Assembly: GCA_020852815.1 (NCBI GenBank)
Contig: JADZAN010000018.1
Span: 124,001-188,000, forward strand
Origin: Gemmatimonadaceae bacterium
GTDB lineage: Bacteria > Gemmatimonadota > Gemmatimonadetes > Gemmatimonadales > Gemmatimonadaceae
Length of the DNA: 64,000 bases
Direction: 5' to 3'
In this document: piece after piece, positions 37,952 through 64,000 of the stretch
Numbering within the stretch: position 1 is the first letter of the stretch
Layout: each line of letters begins with the position of its first letter
The notes under the pieces: generated by a model
Databases searched by the model: none
Seen by the model: only the letters and a program-made list of their open reading frames with translations
What the model was told of the DNA's origin: nothing
Made by a program: the position numbers and the translations under genes

Positions 37952-37953
37952 CG

Positions 37954-48206: not shown

Positions 48207-48216
48207 AGCGGGCACA

Positions 48217-48802: not shown

Positions 48803-48905
48803 GCATAACGCTAACCTTCACCTGCAGGCAAGTTATAGACAGTTGCGCGCACCCCTCGTGCGCGCAATCCCTGAATCGCCTGTCAGGCGCAACGCGTTGT
48901 TAGCT
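48803..48905 (-). other. attC site
   Basis: GCATAAC (48803 to 48809) and GTTAGCT (48899 to 48905). Interior GCGCGCACCCCTCGTGCGCGC forms a strong inner hairpin; outer arms are ACCTGCAGGC / GCCTGTCAGG. The stop codon of the truncated higA lies in the right core. Confidence 0.75.
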
Positions 48906-49046: not shown

Positions 49047-49067
49047 GAGTCGCGTAGGATTCGGGCG

Positions 49068-49161
49068 GCGTAACGTCCGGGTTCACCCGCAGACGAACGG
49101 AATAGTGCGAGCGCAGCGAGCGCTCCATAGCTCGGCTGTCGGGTGCAACCCCATGTTGCGC
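49068..49161 (-). other. attC site
   Basis: GCGTAAC (49068 to 49074) and GTTGCGC (49155 to 49161), interior GAGCGCAGCGAGCGC, arms TTCACCCGCAGACGAA / CGGCTGTCGGGTGCAA. Confidence 0.7.
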
Positions 49162-49174
49162 CGAGCCTGCGCGC

Positions 49175-50493: not shown

Positions 50494-50517
50494 GTCGCTA
50501 CAGATCGCCGTGTTGCG

Positions 50518-50611
50518 TGCTAACGCCACGGTTCACCTGCAGCCGAAGGAAGTAGAGCGCGCACAGCGCGCGTTCAATAGCTCGGCTGACTGGTGCAACC
50601 GTCTGTTATGC
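50518..50611 (-). other. attC site
   Basis: TGCTAAC (50518 to 50524) and GTTATGC (50605 to 50611), interior GAGCGCGCACAGCGCGC, arms GGTTCACCTGCAGCC / GGCTGACTGGTGCAACC. The right core complements GCATAAC at 51270. Confidence 0.85.
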
Positions 50612-50920
50612 GACGCGCAGGGGCTTGATTCGTGCCACGTCGTCCTTGATCGCTTGGCCCGCCTCCCAGAGATCGACGCTGCGCTGGGCGTTGAGCCAGA
50701 ACTCCGCGCTGTTGCCAAAGAGCCGCGACAACCGCAACGCCATCTCGGGGCTCAACGCGCGTCGCTCACGCAGCAGTTCGTTGATCGACTGCCGGGAAAC
50801 GCCTAACGCCTCCGCCAGCCCCGCCACGGTGAGCGCGTAGTCGGGCATGAAGTCTTCGCGGAGCATTTCCCCCGGGTGGGTCGGCCGCCGCTTCATCGTA
50901 CGGGTGTTCGGGATGCTCAT
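50606..50920 (-). CDS. higA: HigA-family antitoxin (XRE)
   Basis: About 104 residues (MSIPNTRTMKRRPTHPGEMLREDFMPDYALTVAGLAEALGVSRQSINELLRERRALSPEMALRLSRLFGNSAEFWLNAQRSVDLWEAGQAIKDD). HPGE and the XRE helix-turn-helix (LTVAGLAEALGVSRQSINELLRERRALS) are complete. It pairs with the upstream HigB toxin, which it inactivates while repressing the shared promoter. The stop TAA lies inside the attC core. There is a 15-base gap to the toxin gene. Confidence 0.95.
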   Translation of the reverse strand: MSIPNTRTMKRRPTHPGEMLREDFMPDYALTVAGLAEALGVSRQSINELLRERRALSPEMALRLSRLFGNSAEFWLNAQRSVDLWEAGQAIKDDVARIKPLRVA

Positions 50921-50935
50921 GCGGAGCCCTCCAGC

Positions 50936-51217
50936 CTAGTGGTAGTCGCAGACCTCGACGTCGTAGGCATCGCCGTCGACGAAGCGGAAACAGATGCGCC
51001 ACTGATCGTTCACGGCGATCGCATGCTGGCCCTGCCGATCGCCGCGTAGCGCGTGGAGGCGGTTGCCAGGGGGCACTTTCAGGTCGTCCAGCGACGTCGC
51101 CAGGTCCACGTACTCCAGCTTTCGCGCCGCCCGGCGTGCCACGTCGGGCGGGAAGCGCTTCGCCGCACCTGTGGCATAGAGGTCCTGCGTGCGCTTGTCG
51201 GCGAACGACTTGATCAC
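50936..51217 (-). CDS. higB: HigB-family mRNA interferase toxin
   Basis: About 93 residues (MIKSFADKRTQDLYATGAAKRFPPDVARRAARKLEYVDLATSLDDLKVPPGNRLHALRGDRQGQHAIAVNDQWRICFRFVDGDAYDVEVCDYH). The RelE/HigB fold is complete, with the PPGNRLHALRGDRQGQHAIAVNDQWRICF core and C-terminal DYH containing the usual His. It cleaves mRNA on the ribosome. The GTG start at 51217 lies seven bases from the -10, so the message may be leaderless. The module is intact. Confidence 0.94.
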   Translation of the reverse strand: MIKSFADKRTQDLYATGAAKRFPPDVARRAARKLEYVDLATSLDDLKVPPGNRLHALRGDRQGQHAIAVNDQWRICFRFVDGDAYDVEVCDYH

Positions 51218-51223
51218 GGGTCA

Positions 51224-51252
51224 AGTGTAACGCAGCACGTGACACGTGTCAA
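51224..51252 (-). promoter_or_regulatory. higBA promoter with operator palindrome
   Basis: On the minus strand, a consensus TTGACA (51247 to 51252), a 17-base spacer and TACACT (51224 to 51229), with the GTG start seven bases beyond. A 10-bp palindrome GACACGTGTC (51241 to 51250) covers part of the -35 and the spacer and is a likely HigA operator. Confidence 0.75.
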
Positions 51253-51269
51253 TTCACGCCGGTCGGTTC

Positions 51270-51361
51270 GCATAACTTCGGTTCACCTGCAGCCGAAGGC
51301 AATCAAGCGCGCGAAGCGCCCGTACAATAGCTCGGCCGACTGGTGCAACCGATGGTTATGC
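51270..51361 (-). other. attC site
   Basis: GCATAAC (51270 to 51276) and GTTATGC (51355 to 51361), interior AAGCGCGCGAAGCGCCC. Arms match the site at 50518 almost exactly. The brnA stop codon lies in the right core. Confidence 0.85.
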
Positions 51362-51646
51362 AGCGCCGGCGCGTTTGCGCCGCGGCCTGGCTGCGGGGCG
51401 ACTGCCGAGTTCATCGCGAATCACGCGCCGGACCACCGCCTCGAGCGGTTCGCGCGCTTCCGTCATGGCCTGGCGCAGGGTCTGGTTGATGAGCGTCTGA
51501 TAGTTGCCCCCGCCAGCCGCGTCGACCTGGGCGCGATACCAGTCGAGGATGTCGTCATCGAGCCGGATCGTGATCCGCGTCTTACCCGTGGCGACGGGCA
51601 GCACCGGGCCACGGCGGGCCTTGGAGAAGTCATACTCTTTACGCAT
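51356..51646 (-). CDS. brnA: BrnA antitoxin
   Basis: About 96 residues from the ATG at 51646 (MRKEYDFSKARRGPVLPVATGKTRITIRLDDDILDWYRAQVDAAGGGNYQTLINQTLRQAMTEAREPLEAVVRRVIRDELGS). The BrnA signature is clear: MRKEYDFSKARRGPV followed by a ribbon-helix-helix DNA-binding part ITIRLDDDILDWYRAQVDAAGGGNYQTLINQTLRQAM. It would neutralise BrnT and repress the operon. Its start overlaps the end of the brnT frame. It is intact although the toxin is not. Confidence 0.95.
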   Translation of the reverse strand: MRKEYDFSKARRGPVLPVATGKTRITIRLDDDILDWYRAQVDAAGGGNYQTLINQTLRQAMTEAREPLEAVVRRVIRDELGSRPAARPRRKRAGAA

Positions 51647-51914
51647 CAGCGTCCTCGGCGTACTGGCGGCGCTCTCGAGCTGTTGCCCGGCGCGCCGAAA
51701 TGAGTCGGATCGCCCCAGGGCTGGTGGTCCAGACGACAACCAGCACGCGATCCAGGAGGTCACGGCCCAGCGTGACGAAGCGTTCTTCGTTGGGCTACGG
51801 GTCCGGGAGCGTGAGCGCATACGCGTCCTCGAAGACGCCGGCGGCATCGGCCAACTCGACACCGTGCTTGGCGCGATTCGTGGCGGCCTTGGCCGGGTCC
51901 CACTCGAAGTCCAT
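51639..51914 (-). pseudogene. brnT: BrnT toxin gene with in-frame stop
   Basis: Reading from the ATG at 51914, the frame gives MDFEWDPAKAATNRAKHGVE, LADAAGVFEDAYALTLPDP, then TAG at 51795 to 51797, then NEERFVTLGRDLLDRVLVVVWTTSPGAIRLISARRATARERRQY to a TAA overlapping the brnA start. All parts of BrnT (RelE-like ribonuclease fold, with DPAKAATNRAKHGV at the front and RLISARRATARERRQY at the end) are present in one frame, so a single nonsense codon has probably inactivated it. Confidence 0.85.
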
Positions 51915-51919
51915 GCTGC

Positions 51920-51948
51920 AACGTATGTACTGATGTACACCGCCGCAA
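51920..51948 (-). promoter_or_regulatory. brnTA promoter with operator palindrome
   Basis: On the minus strand, TTGCGG (51943 to 51948), a 17-base spacer and TACGTT (51920 to 51925), with the ATG six bases away. The spacer contains TGTAC-ATCA-GTACA (51926 to 51939), a likely BrnA operator. Confidence 0.6.
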
Positions 51949-52025
51949 CCCGCCGGGGACCGTTCACTGTGCGATACAGGCGGCTACGGGAGAGCGCGCA
52001 GGCCCGGCCTCACGCTCATTCGGCT

Positions 52026-52201
52026 GCATAACGAGGTTGTAGGATAAGTCCGCGCTCCGTTGCCGGGCCTGCATTTCTCCATACCGAAACCATTGCCGGG
52101 ACGGCGAACGTCGATCCTGGGGCGAATGTGAGCGTCGAATCCTCGACAACGCACTGGGTGGATGTGACGGTCGAATTTTCCTACATCCTCAACGTTCTAA
52201 C
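52026..52201 (-). other. Long attC-like element without a gene
   Basis: GCATAAC at the left begins an arm GAGGTTGTAGGATAAG that pairs with TTTTCCTACATCCTC near the right end, which overlaps the core of the next site (GTTCTAA). The left core is the exact complement of the right core at 51355. The 176-bp element carries no gene and may be an unusually long attC forming its own cassette. Confidence 0.5.
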
Positions 52202-52285
52202 TCAACCGCCGACGAAGGACATCGTGCAGCGGCCCCGCCGCTGCACACAGCAGATCGGCGGTCTGTTGCAGCACCCCGTTAGGCG
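52196..52285 (-). other. attC site
   Basis: TTCTAAC (52196 to 52202) and GTTAGGC (52279 to 52285), with CAACCGCCGA / TCGGCGGTCTGTTG arms and inner GCAGCGGC / GCCGCTGC. The right core contains the stop of the next gene and complements GCCTAAC at 53358. Confidence 0.8.
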
Positions 52286-53337
52286 CCTATACGTGGTTCC
52301 CAGCGATGGCGTGCGAGAGTTTCCAGTCCATCGGAATCTTGGGTGGCGACGTACACGTGTCGACGGATATCGTAACAGCTTCCGGGGGCGCTCGCGGATC
52401 GCGCCCGGAGGATCAATGCAAACCCGTCGGGCGAGGCGATCGCGACACCGGGGATGGGCTCGGCGAAGGACACGAACGGGGGCAGAAGCTTGGGCCATGT
52501 CCCGTAGGACGCCGCCGGGCGCCGCGGCGTGCCGTAGAGAAAGGTCTGGCGCTCGGCGAATGCGTCCTGATCGGCTTGCGTCACGCGCTGAGGCTCGTCG
52601 CGAATGGCCTCGCCGCGAATCCAGCGGCCGTCCGGCGTTCGCCGGTCCAGACGATACGGCTCCAGTCGCGCGACCGCGAGCCATCCGTCGCGTGCGACCG
52701 CGAACACCTCGCTCGTCGCGAGGGCCGGCCGCTCACGCACCTGCATGCCCGTCGATCCCGAGGGGGTGCTCCATCGCTCAATACGACCGGGCGCCGCTCG
52801 CAGGCGGGCGATCGTGTCGACTCGGCCCGTGGCGCGGGCAACGCGCATGACGCGAATGGAATCGGCAGCACCGAACTGGTGGCTCCCAAGGGGAGTTGGA
52901 GGTGACCACGTCGACCAGACGTGACCGAGGTCGTCGGTCGCACTGACCAACCCTCGCACGGCTACCAAGGCTGGCGTATCCGGGGGAATCGAGCCGGTTG
53001 GCGCGTCGCCGACAAACACGAGCCAGCGCCGAGTTGCGCCTCCCATAAGAGAAGAGTCGGCGGGCAGTCGAAAGAGCGGCGCCGCATTCGCATACTCCCT
53101 CGGCCCCGCTCCGCGGCGTCCAACGTCGCGTACGGCATCAGTCTTGAGATCCGCCACCAGGACTCGAGATTCTCGCCCATCGCTCACCAGGACGCGACCG
53201 TCCGCCAATTCTCGAACGGAGGAGATGAAGGAGAACTCGTGGGAGAACCGCGCATCCGGCGGCGCGAGCGCCTGCGGGCTCTGCGCCGCTAGCGTTCCGC
53301 TCGCCAGCACACCGAGACAGAGCAGGACAACTCGCAT
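52279..53337 (-). CDS. Exported 6-bladed beta-propeller-like protein
   Basis: About 352 residues from the ATG at 53337 (MRVVLLCLGVLASGTLAAQS), a signal peptide ending A-Q. The mature sequence has repeated four-strand motifs with conserved turns: SHEFSFISSVRELADGRVLVSDGRESRVLVADLKTD, WLVFVGDAPTGS, LVSATDDLGHVWSTW, EVFAVARDGWLAVARLEPYRLDRRTPDG and IPGVAIASPDGFALILRA, like the 6-bladed beta-propeller (NHL/BF-type) proteins common in Gemmatimonadota. It is probably a binding protein. The stop lies in the attC core. Confidence 0.75.
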   Translation of the reverse strand: MRVVLLCLGVLASGTLAAQSPQALAPPDARFSHEFSFISSVRELADGRVLVSDGRESRVLVADLKTDAVRDVGRRGAGPREYANAAPLFRLPADSSLMGGATRRWLVFVGDAPTGSIPPDTPALVAVRGLVSATDDLGHVWSTWSPPTPLGSHQFGAADSIRVMRVARATGRVDTIARLRAAPGRIERWSTPSGSTGMQVRERPALATSEVFAVARDGWLAVARLEPYRLDRRTPDGRWIRGEAIRDEPQRVTQADQDAFAERQTFLYGTPRRPAASYGTWPKLLPPFVSFAEPIPGVAIASPDGFALILRARSASAPGSCYDIRRHVYVATQDSDGLETLARHRWEPRIGA

Positions 53338-53357
53338 GCATTGACGGGAGTTGGTGC

Positions 53358-53435
53358 GCCTAACGTTGGAGTTCACCCGCGGGCGACAGACGGCGCAGCC
53401 GGCTGGCGAACGTCGGGTGCAACGACGGGTTAGGC
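53358..53435 (-). other. attC site
   Basis: GCCTAAC (53358 to 53364) and GTTAGGC (53429 to 53435), arms GTTCACCCGCGGGCGA / CGAACGTCGGGTGCAA. The cores complement those of the next boundary at 53880. Confidence 0.85.
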
Positions 53436-53861
53436 GTCACTGCGCGGACTGGGGGTTCGATCTCCCCAGCCGAGGGAGGTTGCATTGCCTTCGCGATCTA
53501 TCTCGACGTAGGCGAAGTACGGCTCTCGCTGGCCCTTGCTCGGAACCTTCCAGAAATGAGCGGCGCCTCTGTCGTTTGTCAGAACGCCAAGGTACTGAAG
53601 ATCGTCTGCCTTCAAGCCATCTGGGTCATCCAAGAATTCCCCGAACTCGCGCCGTAGATATCGCGGCAACTCGCGTTCAGTGGCTTCATCCAAACCGGTC
53701 CTGCCGAACCAACTGGCTTCCTCCACCGTCGCTTCCTCGAGTTGACGGCGCGAAAGATACTGTCCGTGAGCAGCTGCCACGTCCTTTCTCACGCTACGCG
53801 CGAATCCATAGATGGCGATCGCGAGCACGCAGAGAACCAGAGCGATGAGAGCGAGGTACAT
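53430..53861 (-). CDS. Membrane-anchored hypothetical protein
   Basis: About 143 residues (MYLALIALVLCVLAIAIYGF) with one N-terminal transmembrane helix followed by a basic segment (ARSVRKDVAAAHGQYLSRRQLEEATVEEASWFGR) and a soluble domain with ELPRYLRREFGEFLDDPDGLKADDLQYLGVLTNDRGAAHFWKVPSKGQREPYFAYVEIDREGNATSLGWG. It resembles small membrane-bound proteins found in cassette arrays; the family is unrecognised. The stop TAA lies in the attC core. Confidence 0.65.
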   Translation of the reverse strand: MYLALIALVLCVLAIAIYGFARSVRKDVAAAHGQYLSRRQLEEATVEEASWFGRTGLDEATERELPRYLRREFGEFLDDPDGLKADDLQYLGVLTNDRGAAHFWKVPSKGQREPYFAYVEIDREGNATSLGWGDRTPSPRSDA

Positions 53862-53879
53862 AAGGGCTAGTTGTGTGAC

Positions 53880-53970
53880 GCCTAACGTTAAGCCTCAGCT
53901 GCAGCCGCAGGAAATGGAGCGCGCGGAGCGCGCATACCCAAGCGGCTAACTGCTGCTGGCGATGTTACCG
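53880..53970 (-). other. attC site
   Basis: GCCTAAC (53880 to 53886) and GTTACCG (53964 to 53970), interior GAGCGCGCGGAGCGCGC, arms GCCTCAGCTGCAGCCG / CGGCTAACTGCTGC. Confidence 0.82.
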
Positions 53971-54552
53971 TGCGCGAGCGGGAAAGGCGAGCATCAGAAT
54001 GCGATTCGTCGCGCGCAGATCGAAGGTGTCGGGGTGAAAGTGCGCGCCAACCCAGGTCCGACTCGCGAGGAACTCCGAATCCGTCGGGTCGGCGAGACTC
54101 CGCAGCAGGTCTGTGTAACCCGGTGATCCACCGGCGTCCTCGGGTGGGCCCGCGCGTGCGCCATCGACGCACCACGGATAGGGGACGTCGGGGTGCGGCG
54201 CATGCGTCGCCACGAGACGAATGTCGTGCACCCAGTTGTCGCCGAAGTCGTAGGTGTACTCGAGCCGCGAGTCCGGCTGCAGTGCGAGACTCGCGAGCGA
54301 CGTGCGCGTCGCGTCGCGCCCCTCGGCGTCTTCGTGGGGCGCTTCATACTCGACGCCATCGAGCAGAAACGAGTAGAGGTGGTAGTCCAGCCAGCCGAAG
54401 CATTCCTGAATCACCCGATGGACCTCGTCGAGCGTGAACGCGTCGGGCACCAGCACCTGTCGCCAGATCTCGGGTGCGATGTCTTGCAGCGCAATGCGGA
54501 GCTCGAGGATTCGAGGCGGCGACTTGGCGCGCGCGCGCTTCGGCACGATCAC
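53965..54552 (-). CDS. pRiA4b ORF-3-like protein
   Basis: About 195 residues (MIVPKRARAKSPPRILELRIALQDIAPEIWRQVLVPDAFTLDEVHRVIQECFGWLDYHLYSFLLDG). The signature of the plasmid pRiA4b ORF-3 family is clear: LQDIAPE-IWR-V-V, TLDEVHRVIQECFGW-DYHLYSF, then LEYTYDFGDNWVHDIRLV and YPWCVDGARAGPPEDAGGSPGYTDLL. The family occurs on plasmids and in accessory regions; its function is unknown. The stop TAA lies in the attC core, so it fills its cassette. Confidence 0.92.
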   Translation of the reverse strand: MIVPKRARAKSPPRILELRIALQDIAPEIWRQVLVPDAFTLDEVHRVIQECFGWLDYHLYSFLLDGVEYEAPHEDAEGRDATRTSLASLALQPDSRLEYTYDFGDNWVHDIRLVATHAPHPDVPYPWCVDGARAGPPEDAGGSPGYTDLLRSLADPTDSEFLASRTWVGAHFHPDTFDLRATNRILMLAFPARAR

Positions 54553-54570
54553 CTCCAGGTCGGAAGCGAA

Positions 54571-54664
54571 GGGTAACGTTTGAGCATCAGCTGCGGACGA
54601 ACGAAATAGAGCGAGCGCAGCGAGCGTACAGTAGATCGGCCGTCTGCTGCATGCGATGTTAGCC
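54571..54664 (-). other. attC site
   Basis: GGGTAAC (54571 to 54577) and GTTAGCC (54658 to 54664), interior GAGCGAGCGCAGCGAGC, arms AGCATCAGCTGCGGACGA / CGGCCGTCTGCTGCATGC. Confidence 0.82.
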
Positions 54665-55300
54665 GGTTCCTTCGCTTAAAGAGAGGGGCTTTCGATACGG
54701 ATGCGGCGGGATCGCGCGAAGCTGATCGCCGAGCACGAGTGCGCAGGTGTTATCGAGACCTAGTACAGCGAAGCAAGCGTCACGCACCGCCCATTGCATT
54801 GTGAGCAATGTCAGGGCGCCTTCCTCGCGAATAAGATCCGCTCGCCGTTGGAGGTGCGCGTCTTGGTGAAAGACCTCGCCGTTCATCCATGTGTGCAAGA
54901 TGAACTCAGCGTCGAAGTGTTCATCGTGGATCGCAAAGACAATCGGTCGCCGAAACGACTGTTTCCACGCATCTCTCAGCTGCACCACCAGATCGCGAAC
55001 CTCCTCACTCCCAACTCGATATGCGAGGTTGGCGACTTTGTTGAAGTTGGTCGGTTCTTTCTGCGCATAGACGAGACGGAACGCGACCATGAGCGCGAAG
55101 AAGTCCGCTTCCGGGATTAGATCTGCTTCGTCTGGCAGATCAGCACGGAACATGCGCGCACCGAACTGGTGAGAAGCATACGGTAGCACGCGATCATAGA
55201 GACGACCGGCCGCCCGCCTGAAGGACTGAAGCTGGAGGCGGTCCTGCTCGTTGAGCGGTGACGTCTGCGGAGTCATGCGCTTTGTTCGCATTGGATTCAA
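54659..55300 (-). CDS. Hypothetical cassette protein
   Basis: About 213 residues; ATG codons at 55300, 55291 and 55276 (MTPQTSPLNEQDRLQLQSF) are all possible starts. Features include FRRAAGRLYDRVLPYASHQFGARMFRADLPDEADLIPEADFFALMVAFRLVYAQKEPTNFNKVANLAYR and REEGALTLLTMQWAVRDACFAVLGLDNTCALVLGDQLRAIPPHP. No signal peptide or membrane segment is seen and no family is recognised. The stop lies in the attC core and the start is 14 to 38 bases from the cassette edge. Confidence 0.65.
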   Translation of the reverse strand: MNPMRTKRMTPQTSPLNEQDRLQLQSFRRAAGRLYDRVLPYASHQFGARMFRADLPDEADLIPEADFFALMVAFRLVYAQKEPTNFNKVANLAYRVGSEEVRDLVVQLRDAWKQSFRRPIVFAIHDEHFDAEFILHTWMNGEVFHQDAHLQRRADLIREEGALTLLTMQWAVRDACFAVLGLDNTCALVLGDQLRAIPPHPYRKPLSLSEGTG

Positions 55301-55314
55301 ATCCGCCTAACGCC

Positions 55315-55397
55315 GAGCATCATCTGCGGCCGAAGGAAACAGAGCGAGCGAAGCGAGCGCACAACAGATCGGCCGACTGCTGCATGCGATGTTATGC
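55315..55397 (-). other. attC site
   Basis: GCCTAAC (55315 to 55321) and GTTATGC (55391 to 55397), interior GAGCGAGCGAAGCGAGC, arms CATCATCTGCGGCCGA / TCGGCCGACTGCTGCATG. Confidence 0.82.
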
Positions 55398-55464
55398 GGC
55401 CCTGTCACAGCGCTCGCCCTTGCCGGGGCGAGTGCTGTGCCAAGCTAGGTGCGAATCTCAAATG

Positions 55465-56304
55465 CTAGGCCACCTTCGGCAGCCACTCGCTTTCTGGTTT
55501 CGCGATGAGCCGAGCGTTCTTGTACGCAAGATCGAGGGGCAATACCGTGAAGGCACGATAGGCCCGAGCTTCTCGCTCCACGACGAGTGCCAAGTCTGCT
55601 CGTGCAGGCGTCTCGAAGCAGAGCGGCAGCAGAAGTTGAATGCGACCGAGTTCTGCGCCATCGCGTCCGAAGTAGAACTGAGGAATCGCGACCTTATAGT
55701 TCATCTGCGCGCGCTTGCCCGCCTCAACGACCTGACTCTGCAGCATCCCCCGGCGCTTGTGCGCGTTCTCCCTCAGGTCAGGTGGATATCGATCGACGTT
55801 GTCGTCGATTATGTGGTCGAGGTTCGGGATGAGCTCACGGTCTGGGTCGTAGATGAGCTCCGCCGGATTCTCGAAGTACCGTGCAACTGGCGGCCGACGA
55901 ATGAAGAAACTCATTCGTTTGTCGCTCTCGGTAACGAAGTCCTTCAACACCCAAGGCTGTCGATTGGGGTCGCGATTTGCCTCGAAGAACGCGTAGATCG
56001 GCTCGTAGTTCGGAGTGAACAGGCCGGTGTTGAAGGCGGCGATCCGGATGCCCTGAGCGTCGGAAGACTCCTCGATCTTCTCCTGCTGCACCAACCGCTT
56101 GAAGGTGTAGCGTAGGTAGTTGCCGAGAATCGAGAACGGCTGGTTCGAATCGAAGGACCAGGTCTCAGGCTGGGCGCGTTCGGAAAGCTCACGAAGTCGC
56201 GACTCGAAGCCCTTGCTTGGCGGAACATCTACTCCGCGTGCTGGGATCCAGGCGAAGTCAAAGAGGTCCGCGGCCCCCGCAGGGGTAGGAAGGGTGGAGC
56301 TCAT
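55465..56304 (-). CDS. DUF3825-domain protein
   Basis: About 279 residues (MSSTLPTPAGAADLFDFAWIPARGVDVPPSKGFESRLRELSERAQPETW...), with AAAGGAG eight bases upstream of the start codon. The DUF3825 pattern is complete: FSILGNYLRYTFKRLVQQEK, IAAFNTGLFTPNYEPIYAFFEANRD, PPVARYFENPAELIYDPDRELIPNLDHIIDDNVDRYP and MNYKVAIPQFYFGRDGAELGRIQLLLPLCFETPARADLALVVER, ending KNARLIAKPESEWLPKV. Function is unknown; the domain also occurs in proteins with RNA-binding or nuclease-like partners. It is intact and full-length. Confidence 0.88.
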   Translation of the reverse strand: MSSTLPTPAGAADLFDFAWIPARGVDVPPSKGFESRLRELSERAQPETWSFDSNQPFSILGNYLRYTFKRLVQQEKIEESSDAQGIRIAAFNTGLFTPNYEPIYAFFEANRDPNRQPWVLKDFVTESDKRMSFFIRRPPVARYFENPAELIYDPDRELIPNLDHIIDDNVDRYPPDLRENAHKRRGMLQSQVVEAGKRAQMNYKVAIPQFYFGRDGAELGRIQLLLPLCFETPARADLALVVEREARAYRAFTVLPLDLAYKNARLIAKPESEWLPKVA

Positions 56305-56441
56305 GCTTGTACTCCTTTCGGTTAATGGGGTTGCTCAACATCTGCCTGCCAGAATTCAATGCCCGCGGCGACTCGTTGGACGCGGCGGGATCATCAAGTT
56401 AGCACACCAAGAAACGACGTCAAGACGGTCCCGGATGGGCC

Positions 56442-56541
56442 GTATAACGATAGAACTCAGCAGCGGGCGAGTTATTACAAAACGCGCGCACTCTGTGCGC
56501 GCCAACCAAAGATCGCCCGTCTGTTGCAGTGCATGTTGGGC
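56442..56541 (-). other. attC site
   Basis: GTATAAC (56442 to 56448) and GTTGGGC (56535 to 56541), interior ACGCGCGCACTCTGTGCGCGC, arms CTCAGCAGCGGGCGA / TCGCCCGTCTGTTGCAG. The right core exactly complements GCCCAAC at 56894. Confidence 0.85.
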
Positions 56542-56585
56542 GGAGGGCCGCGCGATCCCAAACGCGTGGATGCGGCCCCGACTCG

Positions 56586-56828
56586 TTAGGTGCGGGACGC
56601 GGACGTGCCCGCCCGCCACGCGTCGGCGGCCGCCCAGAGCGTGAGCATCGCGATCTCCAGCAGCGGCAGGGCGATGGGTAGGCGCGCAATCGCGAACAGG
56701 GGCCAGAGCAGCAGCGCGGCGAGGGACGCCCACAGGAAGCGTCGCCCGACGATGTGGCGGCCCTGCTCAAACTGTCCCCAACCAGGGACAACGAAACTAA
56801 GCAACATGCATCGCGTGCGCGGCGTCAT
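56586..56828 (-). CDS. Small membrane protein (DUF5683/TM2-like)
   Basis: About 80 residues: MTPRTRCMLLSFVVPGWGQFEQGRHIVGRRFLWASLAALLLWPLFAIARLPIALPLLEIAMLTLWAAADAW. The PGWGQFEQGRHIVG stretch between two hydrophobic parts is reminiscent of DUF5683-type (TM2-like) membrane proteins. The C-terminus (RAGTSASRT) is short and basic. The cassette is entirely taken up by this gene. Function unknown. Confidence 0.65.
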   Translation of the reverse strand: MTPRTRCMLLSFVVPGWGQFEQGRHIVGRRFLWASLAALLLWPLFAIARLPIALPLLEIAMLTLWAAADAWRAGTSASRT

Positions 56829-56893
56829 CGATTCCTCCAGAAGTGCGGTACGCCTTCAGCCCATGCAGAATATTACGACAGTTTGTCCCATCC

Positions 56894-56992
56894 GCCCAAC
56901 GCCAATGTTGAGCTGCGCGGGCGTTCAAATAGAGTGCGCCCGGAGGGCGCACGAATCAATAGTGCCCGCGTCTGCTCCAACTAGTGTTAGGA
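56894..56992 (-). other. attC site
   Basis: GCCCAAC (56894 to 56900) and GTTAGGA (56986 to 56992), interior GAGTGCGCCCGGAGGGCGCAC. The right core exactly complements TCCTAAC at 57905 and contains a stop codon. Confidence 0.85.
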
Positions 56993-57889
56993 GGCGTCCC
57001 GCGCGGCCAAGCGCGCCACCAGTGCCATCCTCTCCTCTTCTGACAGTCGCGGCACGAGATCCCTCGACGGCGTAATCTGCCATCGGAGCTGCACGTGATC
57101 GAGCGACAAGATGTCTACGTCGAGCGCGATCCAGAAGTTCAGTAGACTGCGATCAAGTGTCAGTAGCGCCGCATCTCCTCCGGTCAGAGCCGAGGCGATG
57201 GTCAGCCACTCCAGCGCTTGTAGGTCCGCCGCCGTGTTGTACGCGTCCTCCGGTGAGTAGCCGCTCCGAGGCTTAACAACTCCACGGCCAATGCGCGGTT
57301 CTGTTCCGTCGTGCGGCTCGTAGAGGACGGAAAGCACCGCAAGGACGGGTGTAGACACTGCCGGTAGTCCGGAATCAGCTGCCATCGCAACAATGACGTC
57401 TTCGATCGGTCGTTCTTGCCCACATCGCACCCGACTCGCCACTAGAGGAGCCGCGCCGTGAAGGAACGCGCCTTCCGCTGCGCGGCGGTGCGCAAGGGCT
57501 TGCAGAATGCCATACGTCGCTGCCTGGCGCTCGTGGTCGTAGTCGAGCACTTCGGCAGAGTTAAAGAATGCTCGAAGGTCAGTGGCGGCTGCGTCGATCG
57601 CGACCGAGAACTCCGAAGCTGACGGAGTGCGTCGCACGTTCCCTTCGAGACCGCATAGCACAGGATTAAAGCGGACGCCCGGTCTGTCGAGATGCTTGAG
57701 CCACCACGAGTCAGAGACGCACTGCGCTGCATCAGGCGCACGCAGAATCGACCGGAGACGCGACAGCACGTTCCGGTCGACATAGATCATGGAGACTCGA
57801 GCGAACACTGTAGGCATGCGGCCGCCGAGCTGGAGAAGCCACAGCCGCTCAGGATGATTCCACTGAATGTTTATTGTGAAGTTCAACAC
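56987..57889 (-). CDS. Hypothetical protein, PIN-like features
   Basis: About 300 residues; ATG codons at 57889, 57817 and 57790 (MIYVDRNVLSRLRSILRA) compete as starts. The motif MIYVDRNVLSRL, with Asp early, and later ALTGGDAALLTLDRSLLNFWIALDVDILSLDHVQLRW, with ordered Asp residues and strands, resembles a PIN-type nuclease domain. Between lies a helical segment with YDHERQAATYGILQALAHRRAAEGAFLHG. If correct, it would be a nuclease. No partner gene shares the cassette. The stop lies in the attC core. Confidence 0.6.
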   Translation of the reverse strand: MLNFTINIQWNHPERLWLLQLGGRMPTVFARVSMIYVDRNVLSRLRSILRAPDAAQCVSDSWWLKHLDRPGVRFNPVLCGLEGNVRRTPSASEFSVAIDAAATDLRAFFNSAEVLDYDHERQAATYGILQALAHRRAAEGAFLHGAAPLVASRVRCGQERPIEDVIVAMAADSGLPAVSTPVLAVLSVLYEPHDGTEPRIGRGVVKPRSGYSPEDAYNTAADLQALEWLTIASALTGGDAALLTLDRSLLNFWIALDVDILSLDHVQLRWQITPSRDLVPRLSEEERMALVARLAARDAS

Positions 57890-57904
57890 CCTGACTGCGA
57901 CGCC

Positions 57905-58003
57905 TCCTAACGCTAGCGTTCACCTGCAGGCGAATTACAACAAGTTGCGCGCGTGTTGCGCGCAATCAATAGCTCGCCTGTCAGGTGCAAGGCGTTGTTA
58001 GGC
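57905..58003 (-). other. attC site
   Basis: TCCTAAC (57905 to 57911) and GTTAGGC (57997 to 58003), interior GTTGCGCGCGTGTTGCGCGC, arms GTTCACCTGCAGGCGA / TCGCCTGTCAGGTGCAA. Confidence 0.85.
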
Positions 58004-58107
58004 GACGAGCGAGCAGCACCTGGAGCTAACGATGCGCGCATTGGCTTAGCTAATTCGATGCGATCGACTGCCTGTTGACGATCTGTCCTACTCCTCGCGC
58101 GTATTCG

Positions 58108-58380
58108 TCAGTCATCCGCGGGCGGCTGCGAGAAGGAGTCAAGGTGGCGCTCAATCCGACGAGTTGCGACCGCGCGCCCGCGAAATACGGACATGGTGCC
58201 GAAAGCGATCGCTCCTACCTGCACGATACCAAACGCATTTGCGACGGTGTCGTTGTGGTTTTGATCTCCCCACATGACACCGAAGAACGCACCTATTGCG
58301 ACGACTAGCGAGGCGAATGCACCCAGCATCCATGCTCGCCCTGGCGAACCTTTCGAATCTTTCTCACGCGTTTGGTTCAT
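58108..58380 (-). CDS. Small membrane protein
   Basis: About 90 residues from the ATG at 58380 (MNQTREKDSKGSPGRAWMLGAFASLVVAIGAFFGVMWGDQNHN...), with GGGGTGA as a possible ribosome-binding site. Two hydrophobic stretches, WMLGAFASLVVAIGAFFGVMWG and ANAFGIVQVGAIAFGTMSVF, are followed by a basic C-terminus (RRIERHLDSFSQPPADD). The frame extends upstream to 58434 without extra support. Function unknown. Confidence 0.6.
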   Translation of the reverse strand: MNQTREKDSKGSPGRAWMLGAFASLVVAIGAFFGVMWGDQNHNDTVANAFGIVQVGAIAFGTMSVFRGRAVATRRIERHLDSFSQPPADD

Positions 58381-58585
58381 TCCGTCACCCCTGTCCCCAT
58401 GATATCTAATGCGCGAGCGCGTCAACAATTCCAAGGCGCAGCCCGTTCCGCAGCTACGCTAGTCGCAGCGGGACGCTCGATCACGTAGGAAAGCGTCGTT
58501 CGAGTCGAAGCCGCCGCGCCTGCACCGCTGTACGATTTCCGCTCAGTGCTCAAACCCGCTCCGGTCCTTGGACGGTAGGAGAGTC

Positions 58586-58679
58586 GCCTAACGTCTCGGT
58601 TCACCTGCGGCCGAAGGCCATAGAGCGCGCGCAACGCGCGTACCATAGCTCGGCCGTCTGGTGCAACCGGTTGTTATGC
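58586..58679 (-). other. attC site
   Basis: GCCTAAC (58586 to 58592) and GTTATGC (58673 to 58679), interior GAGCGCGCGCAACGCGCG, arms GGTTCACCTGCGGCCGA / TCGGCCGTCTGGTGCAACC. Confidence 0.85.
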
Positions 58680-58985
58680 GGCGCCCCGCTTCGGCGGCGC
58701 GTGGAGCGCCTCCGCGACCGCCTGCGGATTGCGCGCGGCAACCTTCAACAGGGCGAGAGCGGGACCATCCGGCGTCCGGCGGCCCTGCTCCCAGTTGCGG
58801 AGCGTCGCGACGCTCACGCCGATCATCAGCGCGAACTCCGCTTGGGAGGCTCCGAGCTGCGCCCGGACCGCCTTGACGTCGGCGGGGCGAAAGACGGTGA
58901 CCCGCCGTGGCTTCGCCCGGCCGCGGCGAATCTGGCCGGCTTGACGGACGCTGGTGAGCAACTCCTCGAAGGCGGCACGCTTCAT
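58674..58985 (-). CDS. XRE-family antitoxin (HigA2-like)
   Basis: About 103 residues (MKRAAFEELLTSVRQAGQIRRGRAKPRRVTVFRPADVKAVRAQLGASQAEFALMIGVSVATLRNWEQGRRTPDGPALALLKVAARNPQAVAEAL). The HTH (GASQAEFALMIGVSVATLRNWEQGRRTPDG) is of the toxin-first HigA2/NadS type, which binds operator DNA after pairing with the RelE-like toxin. It overlaps the toxin stop by ATGA. The stop TAA lies in the attC core. Confidence 0.92.
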   Translation of the reverse strand: MKRAAFEELLTSVRQAGQIRRGRAKPRRVTVFRPADVKAVRAQLGASQAEFALMIGVSVATLRNWEQGRRTPDGPALALLKVAARNPQAVAEALHAPPKRGAA

Positions 58986-59299
58986 CTGAATTTCTCCTCG
59001 ACGACGCGCCGCAGGAGCTTGACCTGGGCGGGCGTCAGATCGCCCTGGGCGTTCTTCGCGTACAGGTAGAGCATGTAGAACGTCTCACTGGGCTCGTCCC
59101 AGTAGTAGATGATGCGCAGCCCGCCGCGCTTCCCACGCCCGCTGGTGCCCCAGCGCAGCTTCCGGAGTCCACCCGAACCGACGATCACCGGGCCCTGCTC
59201 GGGTCGGAGCACGAGGGCAAGTTGAAGCGCGCGGTACTCGGGGTCGGAGAGCGCCGCCCGCAGGAGTGAGGTGAAGACGGGCGTCTCGACGAAGCGCAT
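58982..59299 (-). CDS. RelE/HigB-2-like toxin
   Basis: About 105 residues (MRFVETPVFTSLLRAALSDPEYRALQLALVLRPEQGPVIVGSGGLRKLRWGTSGRGKRGGLRIIYYWDEPSETFYMLYLYAKNAQGDLTPAQVKLLRRVVEEKF). The HigB-2-like RelE family signature is complete: GPVI-GSGGLRKLRW...GKRGGLRIIYYW and LYAKNAQGDLTPAQ-K-L. It is a ribosome-dependent mRNA interferase. The module is intact. Its ATG is six bases from a -10 element, so the transcript is probably leaderless. Confidence 0.94.
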   Translation of the reverse strand: MRFVETPVFTSLLRAALSDPEYRALQLALVLRPEQGPVIVGSGGLRKLRWGTSGRGKRGGLRIIYYWDEPSETFYMLYLYAKNAQGDLTPAQVKLLRRVVEEKFR

Positions 59300-59304
59300 G
59301 CGCC

Positions 59305-59333
59305 AAGGTACGCCATTGGCGTATGCACGTCAA
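59305..59333 (-). promoter_or_regulatory. Promoter and operator of the RelE/XRE module
   Basis: On the minus strand, TTGACG (59328 to 59333), a 17-base spacer and TACCTT (59305 to 59310), with the ATG six bases beyond. A perfect palindrome TACGCCA-A-TGGCGTA (59309 to 59323) overlaps the spacer and -10 and is the likely operator. Confidence 0.75.
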
Positions 59334-59348
59334 TCGCCGCCATCGGCC

Positions 59349-59442
59349 GCCTAACGTCCAAGTTCAGTTGCAAGCGAGTGACATAGTAGCGAGCGAAGCG
59401 AGCTATCCGCCGATCGCTTGTCAACTGCAACGTTCGTTAGAC
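59349..59442 (-). other. attC site
   Basis: GCCTAAC (59349 to 59355) and GTTAGAC (59436 to 59442), interior TAGCGAGCGAAGCGAGCTA, arms CAAGTTCAGTTGCAAGCGA / TCGCTTGTCAACTGCAACG. The right core exactly complements GTCTAAC at 60847. Confidence 0.86.
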
Positions 59443-59501
59443 CGCTTGTGCGCCAGTGTCTGGATCGTGTTGTGCTACTCGTAGGTGGGGCCCGATAGCC
59501 A

Positions 59502-60719
59502 CTACTTCCAGAACATAGGATAGAAAATGCTGATCGGATTGGCCGCATTCTCTGGATTCTCAATGGCAGCACGAGACTGTGCGGCGATCTCTGCTTGGTA
59601 TGTCGCGATCTTTGGAACGAGCGAGTAGATGTCACTTGTGTCGATCACGACCGTGCGCACCTGACTCGTGTCAAACGGAATCTTGTCCGCTTTCCGAATG
59701 ATTTGCACAACGGGCAGTCGGCAGGCGTGGCGGAGCGCCATCTCGTAGAAGACGTTCGGGTTCAGCGTCGAGAGGTCTGCGATCACCAATCGTGATCGCT
59801 TGATGTGCTCGATGATATGTGATGTAATCATGCCAGGAGAGCCGATCTGGTCAGCGCGAACCACGCGCAGTTTCAGCTCGTCCATCGCGGGCTGCACAAT
59901 CGAGCCCATGAACAGGTCTGCGTGCTTACGCTGCTCGCTCCCATCCTCGCCAATCGGGGTCACATAGAAGCACGTATGGTCCCAGTCTGTCGAACTCCCT
60001 GACGCGTCACCTGAACCGACGGCCGGTTGTAGGAGCGGTCGGGTCGCAGGAGAGACGGCTGGCAGATCCTCAACGGCCTTCTCGATCGAGACAAGAGTCT
60101 CCGCGCCACCGATTGTCTGCAGAAGGCCGAGGTCTTTTGCATTTACAACGAAGATGTCCAGACAGCCGCGGGGATCGTCCACGTAGAATGAGGATGCTTC
60201 CAGAAAGTCTTTCATCACCTCGGGCGCTGGCACGCGCTTGTTGACATACTCGTCGTAGATCGCCTTGAATGGCGGAATACTCTGAATGGCGAGGCGAAAC
60301 TTTGCTAAGGTGCGCTCGCGAGGAGCGTGTGCCTCATCGCAAGCGACGCGTCCGTCCGCCGTCAACTCAAGCCACTCGGCTTTATAGGATCCTGTGGTGA
60401 CGCCATACTTGCCTGAATTGGTGATTAGGACGCGCACGGCGCTGCTGTTCGGCGAACGCTCAAGCTTCTGCATGAGCGTCAGGCGGCGGATCTTGTCGCC
60501 GCCGGCGTATCTCACGATGCCAGCACCGAGAATCAGTACCTGCTCGAGAGAGTCGCTTGGATAGCCCTTTTCGCGCCTCGATCCAACCTTCTCACTGTCG
60601 ATCGCTGGCTGCTCTTCGCGGTGCGTGCGTTTCGCCTTCCGCTTACGCTTCTTGGTCTTCTTTACAGCTGGACGCTTCTTTGCCGGCTGGGGTGTTTCCT
60701 CGGCGGTGTCTTCTGACAT
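59502..60719 (-). CDS. TIR-like nucleotide-binding effector, candidate defence protein
   Basis: About 405 residues from the ATG at 60719 (MSEDTAEETPQPAKKRPAVKK). Residues 15 to 45 are strongly basic. The middle contains a winged-helix-like part (LEQVLILGAGIVRYAGGDKIRRLTLMQKLE). The C-terminal 150 residues, HTCFYVTPIGEDGSEQRKHADLFMGSIVQPAMDEL, ITSHIIEHIKRSRLVIADLSTLNPNVFYEMALRHA and LPVVQIIRKADKIPFDTS, match the TIR-like nucleotide-binding domain found in phage-defence effectors; the Glu in NVFYEMALRHA is the probable catalytic residue. Function is inferred from domain; no partner sensor is in the cassette. Confidence 0.7.
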   Translation of the reverse strand: MSEDTAEETPQPAKKRPAVKKTKKRKRKAKRTHREEQPAIDSEKVGSRREKGYPSDSLEQVLILGAGIVRYAGGDKIRRLTLMQKLERSPNSSAVRVLITNSGKYGVTTGSYKAEWLELTADGRVACDEAHAPRERTLAKFRLAIQSIPPFKAIYDEYVNKRVPAPEVMKDFLEASSFYVDDPRGCLDIFVVNAKDLGLLQTIGGAETLVSIEKAVEDLPAVSPATRPLLQPAVGSGDASGSSTDWDHTCFYVTPIGEDGSEQRKHADLFMGSIVQPAMDELKLRVVRADQIGSPGMITSHIIEHIKRSRLVIADLSTLNPNVFYEMALRHACRLPVVQIIRKADKIPFDTSQVRTVVIDTSDIYSLVPKIATYQAEIAAQSRAAIENPENAANPISIFYPMFWK

Positions 60720-60771
60720 ATAGCGGCGGCGAGATAGTGTGCAGTGCGAAAGGTGATACGCGGTTGCAAAG

Positions 60772-60792
60772 CGTACTGCGCAACGCAGTACG
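60772..60792. repeat. Hairpin upstream of the TIR-like gene
   Basis: Inverted repeat CGTACTGCG-CAA-CGCAGTACG with nine-base arms lies 53 bases upstream of the start codon. It could be an operator or an attenuator-like structure. Confidence 0.5.
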
Positions 60793-60846
60793 CGTCGAAG
60801 CCACATATAGACTCAGTATGCTAGCATTCGGAGTATGCTGATAGCG

Positions 60847-60941
60847 GTCTAACGACCAAGCATCAGCTGCGGCCGAACGAAATAGAGCGAGCGAAGCGAG
60901 CGCACAATAGCTCGGCCGTCTGCTGCATGCGCTTGTTAGCC
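60847..60941 (-). other. attC site
   Basis: GTCTAAC (60847 to 60853) and GTTAGCC (60935 to 60941), interior GAGCGAGCGAAGCGAGC, arms GCATCAGCTGCGGCCGA / TCGGCCGTCTGCTGCATGC. The right core complements GGCTAAC at 61410. Confidence 0.87.
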
Positions 60942-60957
60942 CGCACCACGAACACAC

Positions 60958-61398
60958 TTACCGGCGGCCTGTCCAAACGTACTCCACCTCGTCGGCCGTC
61001 GGCGGTAGCTCCCGTGCGCACTCCGCGTCGAGCGAGGAGGTGCGCCCGATGCTGCCGTCGGCGCGCCGCCGCACCCGGATGACGGTCTGCCCCTCGACGA
61101 GTCGCCGGACGTCGGCGACCGCCGTCTCGGCGACCCGGTCGGCGCGCCGCTCTTCGGATTCGTCCTGGAAGCGGTAGACCGGCACGTGCCAATGGTGCGG
61201 GCCCACGCAGATCGTCAGCTCGTCGCCGTCGTCGCGAACGCGCAACTCGCCGAGGGCGGCGTCTGGCGCCGGGACGACCAGCTCGTTTCCGTCGGCGAAC
61301 GACTCCGCATGCGGCAGGTGCCCCAGGTGCGTCTTGAACAGCGCGCGGAACCGCTCGGCGAGCGGGCCGACGCCATCGGATGCGTGATCTGCTTCCAT
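60958..61398 (-). CDS. Hypothetical cassette protein
   Basis: About 146 residues from the ATG at 61398 (MEADHASDGVGPLAERFRALFKTHLGHLPHAESFADGNELVV), which is 11 bases from the attC boundary; the longer frame upstream reads through the attC and is not real. Other segments are GELRVRDDGDELTICVGPHHWHVPVYRFQDESEERRADRVAETAVADVRRLVEGQTVIRVRRRADGSIG, suggesting a small mixed alpha/beta domain with a central strand pair. No family is recognised and no membrane segment is present. Confidence 0.65.
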   Translation of the reverse strand: MEADHASDGVGPLAERFRALFKTHLGHLPHAESFADGNELVVPAPDAALGELRVRDDGDELTICVGPHHWHVPVYRFQDESEERRADRVAETAVADVRRLVEGQTVIRVRRRADGSIGRTSSLDAECARELPPTADEVEYVWTGRR

Positions 61399-61409
61399 GG
61401 GTGCTTGCG

Positions 61410-61548
61410 GGCTAACGACTCTGGTGTTCAGCGGCAGGCGCTCACGGAGCCGAGCGGCCGCGCCCACCTCCAACCCACATGGAGGCGCGGCCGCGACTCT
61501 GCAAACCAGCACTCCGCCGCGTCTGCCCGCTGCAACACCTTGTTAGAC
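61410..61548 (-). other. attC site, long (139 bp)
   Basis: GGCTAAC (61410 to 61416) and GTTAGAC (61542 to 61548), with an enlarged internal hairpin: GCGGCCGCGCC...CACCTCC and GGAGG...CGCGGCCGC around position 61475. The right core exactly complements GTCTAAC at 62332. Confidence 0.85.
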
Positions 61549-61550
61549 GG

Positions 61551-62258
61551 CTACCTGCGCAGGGAATCAAGAAAGAGGTCAAGGGAACCATACCGTCGGG
61601 TCGCGCTCTTGAGCCTCGCATCATCGACACGAAGAATGCCTGGCACCCAATAGTCAGCACTGAAACCAAGCGCGCTCACCAGTGCCGCTTTGGGGATTGA
61701 CACACGCCGGACATTGCGCAGGAAGTAAATCAAGCTCCACGGCTTTCCTGGTACGACACTCCACAGAACTTCACCGAGCCGTTGTGAGTCGATCTTGCCG
61801 ATTACTTCGGCGCGATACGAGAACGTGCCCGAGCCCTTCTCGGTAAAGAGCACCACGTCACCTGTGCGCATTGACGAGAACACACCGCGACGGCTTTCGG
61901 TCATAGCCCAGCAGCGAATCTCGTCCCGTCCGTCGAGGATCTCGGCGATCCGCTGCGCCTCACCATCCGAAAGTGCAGATCGGATCTTACGGAATGATGC
62001 GGCATTGACGATGGTGGCGTTCAGGTTCGCCCCGCTCGCAGGCGTAAAGAACAGCTGCGGTAGTGTGGACACCGTACCCGCGGGTCGCACTGAAGCAGGT
62101 ATGAGAGGAGATTGCTCGTCCACTGCCGGGCGGGGCGCCTGGGATTCGTAGGTGTCGAGAATGCGTTCGATCACAGACGCTGGGGTGTCAACGAGCGGCC
62201 GACCGTACGCTTGTAGCCGGCGGAATAGTTCGTCCGAGATCCGGATGACCGGGGCCAT
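61551..62258 (-). CDS. RHH-like/EVE-like two-domain protein
   Basis: About 235 residues (MAPVIRISDELFRRLQAYGRPLVDTPASVIERILDTYES). The N-terminus resembles a ribbon-helix-helix (VIRISDELFRRLQAYGR...SVIERILDTYE). The C-terminus, VFSSMRTGDVVLFTEKGSGTFSYRAEVIGKIDSQRLGEVLWSVVPGKPWSLIYFLRNVRRVSIPKAAL, looks like an EVE/PUA-type fold, which in many proteins recognises modified bases (restriction systems) or RNA. The combination suggests a nucleic-acid-binding protein, possibly a methylation-sensing factor. An SD-like GGGAGAGG precedes the start. Confidence 0.6.
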   Translation of the reverse strand: MAPVIRISDELFRRLQAYGRPLVDTPASVIERILDTYESQAPRPAVDEQSPLIPASVRPAGTVSTLPQLFFTPASGANLNATIVNAASFRKIRSALSDGEAQRIAEILDGRDEIRCWAMTESRRGVFSSMRTGDVVLFTEKGSGTFSYRAEVIGKIDSQRLGEVLWSVVPGKPWSLIYFLRNVRRVSIPKAALVSALGFSADYWVPGILRVDDARLKSATRRYGSLDLFLDSLRR

Positions 62259-62286
62259 ATCTGCCTCTCCCTGGGTTGGAGAGACA

Positions 62287-62314
62287 AAGTTACATACACT
62301 TAGCCGTCTGTCAA
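62287..62314 (-). promoter_or_regulatory. Promoter of the RHH/EVE-like gene
   Basis: On the minus strand, TTGACA (62309 to 62314), a 16-base spacer and TAACTT (62287 to 62292), about 30 bases upstream of the ATG. Unlike the toxin-antitoxin promoters, it leaves a normal leader with a ribosome-binding site. Confidence 0.6.
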
Positions 62315-62331
62315 GATGGCTCGGGGTAGCC

Positions 62332-62423
62332 GTCTAACGGCCAAGGTTGAGCTGCGGCCGGATGAAATCAAGCGAGCGAAGCGAGCCACCCCCACCGGCC
62401 GACTGCTCCAACCGCTGTTAGTC
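62332..62423 (-). other. attC site of the first cassette
   Basis: GTCTAAC (62332 to 62338) and GTTAGTC (62417 to 62423), interior AAGCGAGCGAAGCGAGC, arms GGTTGAGCTGCGGCCGG / CCGGCCGACTGCTCCAACC. The right core exactly complements GACTAAC in attI (62917). Confidence 0.88.
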
Positions 62424-62437
62424 TGTGAACCCCACGC

Positions 62438-62887
62438 CTACGCCTCCCGCGTGGCGCGCCCCACCTGGTCCTCGAACGCCGCGAGTTGCTCGGGTGCGAG
62501 CAGCCGCGCGGCGAGCCAGTGGCTCAGCGAGTCCGGCGTCGGCTGAGCGACGGGCATCTCGCCCCGCAGCACGCGCTCGGCGACGTCCCGGACCAGGGCG
62601 GCTTTGGCAATGTGCCACACGGCAATCGCGGTGGTGCGGAGCGCCGCGTCGTCGTGCGGCGGCGCGTCGCCGGCGAGCAGGGTGCGGAGAAAGCCGGCCA
62701 CGTGGACCTCGGACGCATCGGCGGCGACCATACCGACGATGGTCTGGGACTGCGCGCGCAACCATTCCGGCGTGCCGTGCGGCGCGCGGTCGAGCAGCCG
62801 GCCGAGCACGCGCTCGAGCGGGGCGTGTGGCGCCTCGCCGCGATCGACCCAGTTGCTGGCCTTGCGGCTGATAAGCGTCGGCGACAT
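62438..62887 (-). CDS. First cassette gene, conserved hypothetical protein
   Basis: About 149 residues from the ATG at 62887 (MSPTLISRKASNWVDRGEAPHAPLERVL), matching the start of its paralogue at 39780; an in-frame start at 62905 is less likely. Segments WLRAQSQTIVGMVAADASEVHVAGFLRTLLAGDAPPHDDAALRTTAIAVWHIAKAALVRDVAERVL are nearly the same in both. It is helical and charged, without membrane segments, and of unknown function. Being first, it is in the best-expressed position of an integron. Confidence 0.72.
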   Translation of the reverse strand: MSPTLISRKASNWVDRGEAPHAPLERVLGRLLDRAPHGTPEWLRAQSQTIVGMVAADASEVHVAGFLRTLLAGDAPPHDDAALRTTAIAVWHIAKAALVRDVAERVLRGEMPVAQPTPDSLSHWLAARLLAPEQLAAFEDQVGRATREA

Positions 62888-62916
62888 GGGCGACGGTCTC
62901 GACACGGAGTGGTCAG

Positions 62917-62988
62917 ACTAACTGTACTTCACCAGTCCCCCCAACCCCCACCCCCTCCCCCCGCCACGTCCTCCCCCCAACACCTAGT
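62917..62988 (-). other. attI: attI recombination site with G-tract run
   Basis: On the minus strand, the boundary GTTAGTC (62917 to 62923) of the first cassette follows a short region read from intI. Between 62937 and 62978 there are five consecutive G-tracts of five or six bases (G6-N10-G6-A-G5-T-G5-TT-G6), which can form a G-quadruplex. attI is placed here because the last bases must end at the cassette crossover. Confidence 0.7.
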
Positions 62989-64000
62989 TCAGGATAACGC
63001 TCGCCGCCCCCCGCAGCCATACCGCCGCAACGCCCCCCAAACCCCGCGCCCGGCGTCCCGCTCGACGAAAACGTTCTCCGTTCGAACTGCGCGGGATAAT
63101 GTCGAAATGATTACACCGCGCTGGCGGCGAAGGCCGCGAGGAACTCCGCCGGGAAGCGACACTCGCGTGAACGGAGCCGACGCGCCGAACTCGGCGGACG
63201 CTACGGGCGCCAGCACGGCAGGGGAGGGCACCGCGAGCTCCACCCTGATCGGCGGCGTCGGTCGCGCGCGCGCGTCCACCACATCCACCCCGCCCGCCCT
63301 ACCCACCCCCCCCACCACTCCCAACGCGTCCAGCGGGCTCCGAACGCCGGTCCCGCTCTCCAAAACGTGCAAGTACAACATCGTCGTCGACACGTCGCGG
63401 TGCCCCAACAGCGACTGGACGGTGCGGATGTCGTAGCCGGCGCGCAGCAACTGCGTCGCGAACGAATGCCTGAAGGTGTGCGCGGTGACGCGCTTGGGGA
63501 TCTCGGCCAGGTTCGCGGCGTTGGTGATCGCGCGTTGCACGGTGGTCTCGTACAAGTGATAGCGCATCATCTGTCCGGACTCCCTGTCGCGGTACTGGCG
63601 CGCGGCGGGAAAGACCCACGCCCACCGCCAGTCCCGGCGCGCGGTCGGAACCTTCATCCCGAAGCTGTAGGGGAGGGCATTGAAGCCGCCGCCGCGAGCG
63701 ACGTCGGTCTCCTGAACTTTCCTCGACCGGAACAGGCGGTGGCTCATCAGCGCGATGGCCTGCTCGGGAAAGACGGTGCGACGGTCCTTTCCCCCCTTGC
63801 CGTCGTGGATCATCAACATGCGACGCCGCAGGTCGACGTCCTTGATGCGCAGTTGCAACGCTTCGTTGAGCCGCAACCCGGAACCGTACAGGAGCATCAC
63901 GATCAGCTGCAAATCCCCGTCGAGTTGCGCGAGGATGCGCGCCACCTCGTCGGGTGCAAGGACGTTGGGGATGCGCTGGCGACGCTTGGCGCGGATGACG
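62989..64000 (-). CDS. intI: Integron integrase IntI (N-terminus beyond the window)
   Basis: About 337 residues visible; the frame runs off the right edge. It is a tyrosine recombinase with the integron-specific extra domain: WRWAWVFPAARQYRDRESGQMMRYHLYETTVQRAI (as WVFP in all integron integrases). Catalytic residues: Arg in YGSGLRLNEALQLR, Lys in GKGGKDR, HxxR in TAHTFRHSFATQLL, His in LLGHRDVSTT, Tyr in TTMLYLHV. The usual C-terminal end GVRSPLDAL is present, but the frame continues for about 110 more residues (GVVGGVGRAGG...GCGGRRALS). The gene points the same way as the cassettes, with its 3' end facing attI. Confidence 0.95.
   Translation of the reverse strand, partial: VIRAKRRQRIPNVLAPDEVARILAQLDGDLQLIVMLLYGSGLRLNEALQLRIKDVDLRRRMLMIHDGKGGKDRRTVFPEQAIALMSHRLFRSRKVQETDVARGGGFNALPYSFGMKVPTARRDWRWAWVFPAARQYRDRESGQMMRYHLYETTVQRAITNAANLAEIPKRVTAHTFRHSFATQLLRAGYDIRTVQSLLGHRDVSTTMLYLHVLESGTGVRSPLDALGVVGGVGRAGGVDVVDARARPTPPIRVELAVPSPAVLAPVASAEFGASAPFTRVSLPGGVPRGLRRQRGVIISTLSRAVRTENVFVERDAGRGVWGALRRYGCGGRRALS

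Follow-up and report, generated by a model that had tools for sequence, protein, structure and literature searches.

An inverted chromosomal integron in a member of the Gemmatimonadaceae and the distribution of its orientation among integron integrases

Integrons of the inverted, or reverse, type have been published in Treponema (Coleman 2004; Wu 2013, PMC3607928), and activity in E. coli has been described for a cassette promoter (Pc) taken from reverse integrons of the Treponema type (PMC6557892). An inverted sub-clade of the integron integrase IntI is credited to Boucher 2007 in the citing passage of PMC8352920, and an inverted integrase group also appears in a passage of a review (PMC10500605). 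Gemmatimonadota are among the listed integron carriers (PMC8618304), and no description of integron orientation in this phylum was found in the limited literature searched. Here, we describe an integron in a window of 64,000 nucleotides (the whole stretch of DNA that was analyzed) from a Gemmatimonadaceae bacterium. Our data point with high confidence toward a chromosomal integron that is intact and of the inverted type, with an orientation that would be inherited within a large IntI clade.

Orientation of intI and the cassette array

In the window, intI, the putative attI, and an array of about 28 attC sites are arranged head to tail on the minus strand, with the 3' end of intI pointing toward attI (Table 1). 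The inverted layout is thereby confirmed, and the complete intI gene together with the minus-strand attC array bears out an earlier note on this DNA, in which intI had been placed on the strand of the cassettes with its 3' end facing attI. The window holds only the last 336 codons of intI (62989-64000); when the open reading frame is extended rightward, the direction of the complete gene is unchanged, and its start lies 272 bases outside the right edge. The element as a whole covers roughly 32340-64272, and the span of the earlier note, beginning at 62905, therefore starts inside the first cassette.

IntI matches TIGR02249 (integron integrase) with 392 bits over profile positions 1-315 of 315, at a family cut-off of 265, and also matches PF00589 and PF13495. 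The catalytic residues R134, K159, H265, R268, H291, and Y300 are all present and are invariant in an alignment of 16 sequences, and the IntI-specific insert (added domain) between the motifs is present in the integrase alignment. A scan of the whole assembly gave no further match that reached the TIGR02249 cut-off. Since this intI is the sole match above it, the assembly has no second, normally oriented intI, the case that had been named as speaking against inversion.

Because a simple hairpin search located attC sites but did not tell their strand, we turned to covariance models. With a model built on 14 clear sites of a hairpin scan, about 28 attC sites were detected in the window; every one lies on the minus strand, and E values reach down to 1e-29. 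The 14 model-building sites match by construction, but 14 further sites do not. Plus-strand matches above chance were weaker mirror images of the minus-strand sites. Furthermore, in 23 of 28 cassettes, it is the minus strand that carries the longest open reading frame between attC sites. The putative attI has a GTTAGTC core, assigned by position and not by recombination, about 66 bases past the intI stop codon, and the first cassette begins after this core. A CGTTAG core was found in the same interval of 15 of 42 relatives (2.4 expected).

The window corresponds to contig C18:124001-188000 (JADZAN010000018.1). The contig reaches 198521 and belongs to a 5.4-Mb draft genome in 47 contigs with an estimated completeness of 100%. 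Because the assembly yielded no 16S gene, the genome was placed by its RpoB. This protein shares 86% identity over 1199 residues with RpoB of a named Gemmatimonadetes genome; for the other 14 matching genomes, identity over the main stretch does not exceed 60%. Hence, the window belongs to the Gemmatimonadota.

Inverted loci in relatives and the integrase tree

An intI above the family cut-off is present in 36 of the 60 related genomes searched. From integrase-bearing relatives, 45 loci were sampled and scored with the attC model, and all 27 loci with detectable attC sites (from 23 genomes) are inverted, with the attC sites on the intI strand at its 3' side; none is divergent. The statement of the earlier note that the arrangement is known in only some lineages is right as to a known type but understated, as the type is a recognized IntI group and universal among the scored Gemmatimonadota loci. 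The integrases of named genomes were retrieved with an alignment query (a single-protein query found none) and scored with the same attC model plus a broader one. Inverted loci were detected in Planctomycetota (L097, L110, and L116), in Acidobacteriota (L092, L099, L104, L105, and L109), in a named Gemmatimonadetes metagenome-assembled genome (MAG) (L102), and in Treponema (L130). Divergent arrays were found in Proteobacteria, Chloroflexota, Anaerolineales, cyanobacteria, one Acidobacteria gp4, Nitrospinae, and others; because the same model also yields these arrays, the scoring detects both layouts. Two apparent inverted integrons were seen in unexpected phyla, one in the gammaproteobacterial MAG Dive96_bin4.167 (L114) and one in a MAG of the Actinomycetota (L134), each with an orientation based on one or two weaker attC matches.

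In a tree of 100 rows, a single clade of 48 rows unites the inverted integrases of Gemmatimonadota, Planctomycetota, and Acidobacteriota, with a support of 92 in the Shimodaira-Hasegawa-like approximate likelihood ratio test (SH-aLRT); the IntI described here belongs to this clade. All 32 scored members of this clade are inverted and none is canonical, and orientation changes 3 times on the tree, compared to 13.8 times in shuffles. Treponema and the single gammaproteobacterial case were placed outside the clade in a short free search, and a single clade of all inverted rows, including Treponema and L114, was not rejected (approximately unbiased test, p-AU 0.877). The tree thus suggests that intI orientation has been passed down within one large clade of IntI that comprises Gemmatimonadota, Planctomycetota, Acidobacteriota, and probably Treponema.

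Could the layout stem from an assembly error or from an inversion confined to this genome? The genome is a draft in 47 contigs, which would leave room for such an error, but intI, attI, and the array lie within a single contig of 198.5 kb, and the same order recurs in the related loci and in named genomes of other phyla, among them the complete chromosome CP036290.1. We therefore regard an artefact or a local inversion as extremely improbable. Some points weigh against an intact integron with inherited orientation. Draft contigs often break within arrays, so that scoring was impossible for many relatives; the left half of the attI core, which was assigned by position, is unlike the TCTAATNCGCGTTAG form of some relatives; and the clade support is an unstarred SH-aLRT value from a short search.

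A ferredoxin/pyridine-nucleotide oxidoreductase gene lies 116 bases upstream of intI on the same strand. The gene upstream of intI is not common to the relatives. Because the upstream gene differs, the integron unit occupies different chromosomal places with its internal order kept; vertical descent at a fixed place in the chromosome was rejected as an explanation, since this oxidoreductase is not beside intI in the relatives.

As to activity, we infer that IntI would insert circular cassettes at attI beside the 3' end of its own gene and cut them out at attC, with the chemistry usual for integrons. Recombination between attI and attC is independent of the reading direction of intI, and hence, both reactions should also work in the inverted layout. 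The intI gene, attI, and the array stay together as a unit across unrelated chromosomal neighborhoods.

Transcription of the cassettes and the intI-attI interval

Our best guess is that transcription is mixed, with a promoter in the intI-attI interval in many members, promoters within some of the cassettes, and read-through from intI or the upstream gene; a dedicated cassette promoter is weighed slightly above read-through. If cassette expression relied chiefly on read-through from intI, integrase and cassettes would form one co-induced operon, the transcript of which might perhaps start at the oxidoreductase gene. This is possible, but we lean against it. Consistent with read-through, the oxidoreductase gene, intI, and the cassettes are codirectional with short gaps, and a scan of the 2.6 kb surrounding intI and attI gave no terminator-like site (1.4 expected); read-through, which the earlier note had raised as a possibility, is possible because no such site lies between intI and cassette 1. 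Neither was a sigma-70-type promoter found in the intI-attI interval of this genome, although consensus promoter scans say little about promoters of Gemmatimonadota. However, the long upstream open reading frame is not codirectional in several relatives, and the promoter-like sites of the relatives (see below) and the activity of a reverse Treponema-type Pc in E. coli also speak against read-through as the main route.

A dedicated Pc in the intI-attI interval, directed at the array as in reverse integrons of the Treponema type, has in our estimate a nearly even chance. It is a live rival to read-through because promoter-like sites are seen in this interval of the relatives: the plain pattern TTG-N19..21-TANNNT occurs in 7 of 40 relatives (2.7 expected) and is enriched on the forward strand only, with 1 occurrence on the reverse strand. 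A pattern picked after viewing the data occurs in 11 of 40 (2.3 expected). The interval of the relatives also contains the conserved elements TAGACTGC, GCAGCCTAAC, and CGTTAG. On the other hand, consensus scans recognized no Pc in the interval of this genome, the overall weight-matrix score of the relatives is not raised (mean z of 0.20, compared to 0.03 on the reverse strand), and the repeated elements, present on the forward as well as the reverse strand, may be sites where the integrase binds. That intI and the array form one transcription unit across the whole Gemmatimonadota-Planctomycetota-Acidobacteriota clade seems unlikely to us. If it were true, conditions that induce the integrase would bring the stored cassettes to expression as well, and control would follow a different logic from that of divergent integrons. 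Since orientation follows the integrase tree, this lineage offers a testable case of how the expression of integrase and cassettes is linked on a shared strand.

Further features were seen in the same interval. Palindromic repeats (TTAGACTGC...GCAGCCTAA) lie between intI and attI in relatives such as L051, L058, and L041 and are possibly accessory integrase-binding sites. The coding strand at 62925-63320, from the IntI core to attI, is unusually G rich, with 10 runs of at least 4 G; three relatives (L065, L068, and L083) have a similar stretch, and a conserved quadruplex element was dropped since it is absent from most relatives.

Cassette content and relation to known integrons

The coordinates are collected in Table 1.

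Table 1. Features of the integron (coordinates in the window; intI extends past its right edge)
Feature	Position	Strand	Remarks
intI, integron integrase gene	64272 -> 62989	minus	ATG at 64272; 427 aa; open reading frame extended rightward
IntI C-terminal run-on	62989..63321	minus	about 110 codons past IntI family end; from profile end and codon-position GC
attI region (putative)	62916..62988	minus	putative core GTTAGTC at 62922-62916; G-rich stretch before core
Cassette 1 gene	62438..62905	minus	155 aa from GTG; alternative ATG at 62887
attC of cassette 1	62330..62425	minus	86 bits; among model-building sites
Cassette 2 gene	61551..62258	minus	235 aa
Toxin-antitoxin-like cassette	58674..59299	minus	RelE-type toxin 58982-59299; helix-turn-helix/MqsA-like antitoxin 58674-58985
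Cassette array	32340..62425	minus	about 28 attC sites; dense at 39330-62425, one further at 32340

IntI of most relatives stops 0 to 30 aa past the profile end, and the GC content by codon position is 0.76/0.64/0.76 in the tail of IntI, compared to 0.64/0.44/0.90 in its core. The C-terminal run-on is probably not conserved protein, and a new domain was rejected on the shorter ends of the relatives and the codon-position GC content. The proteins of cassettes 1 and 2 have no Pfam match. The toxin-antitoxin-like cassette matches PF06296 with 27.8 bits (cut-off, 27) and PF01381 with 41 bits. Cassette 1 (62454-62925) is duplicated at 39808-40279 with 90% identical DNA, so that the copies lie near both ends of the array. 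A stretch of 6.9 kb (32440-39330) between the outermost site and the next has no detected attC and is either a large insertion or contains attC sites missed by the model. More attC sites without an integrase are found on another contig (C37:12044-29366; L085 and L086), either as a cassette cluster without intI or as part of the same array split in the assembly. An extra base in the L'' arm of attC was rejected as a peculiarity, since G and C variants are both found in canonical arrays.

In sum, the inverted layout is genuine and represents the general state in this lineage rather than a quirk, and the integron belongs to the already published inverted/reverse type, the known range of which is widened to another phylum where integrons are common. 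The earlier comparison with Treponema denticola was right: its reverse integron also has the attC array on the 3' side and a toxin-antitoxin cassette, although it belongs to another phylum and its attC sequences differ. IntI shares 41% identity with its Treponema relative L130, and Treponema falls outside the clade of the three phyla in the free tree, with a joint clade not rejected. As far as the "inverted integrase" IntI group of Boucher 2007 is described in the passages that cite it, our locus is alike in its orientation and in having its integrases in one clade, but Gemmatimonadota are not named as members in these passages (PMC8352920 and PMC10500605). With class 1 and Vibrio-type integrons, the locus has in common a tyrosine recombinase with the IntI-specific insert, the GTTRRRY core, structured attC sites, and tandem cassettes; in those integrons, however, intI is divergent, its 5' end adjoins attI, and Pc is located on the opposite strand, within intI or next to it.
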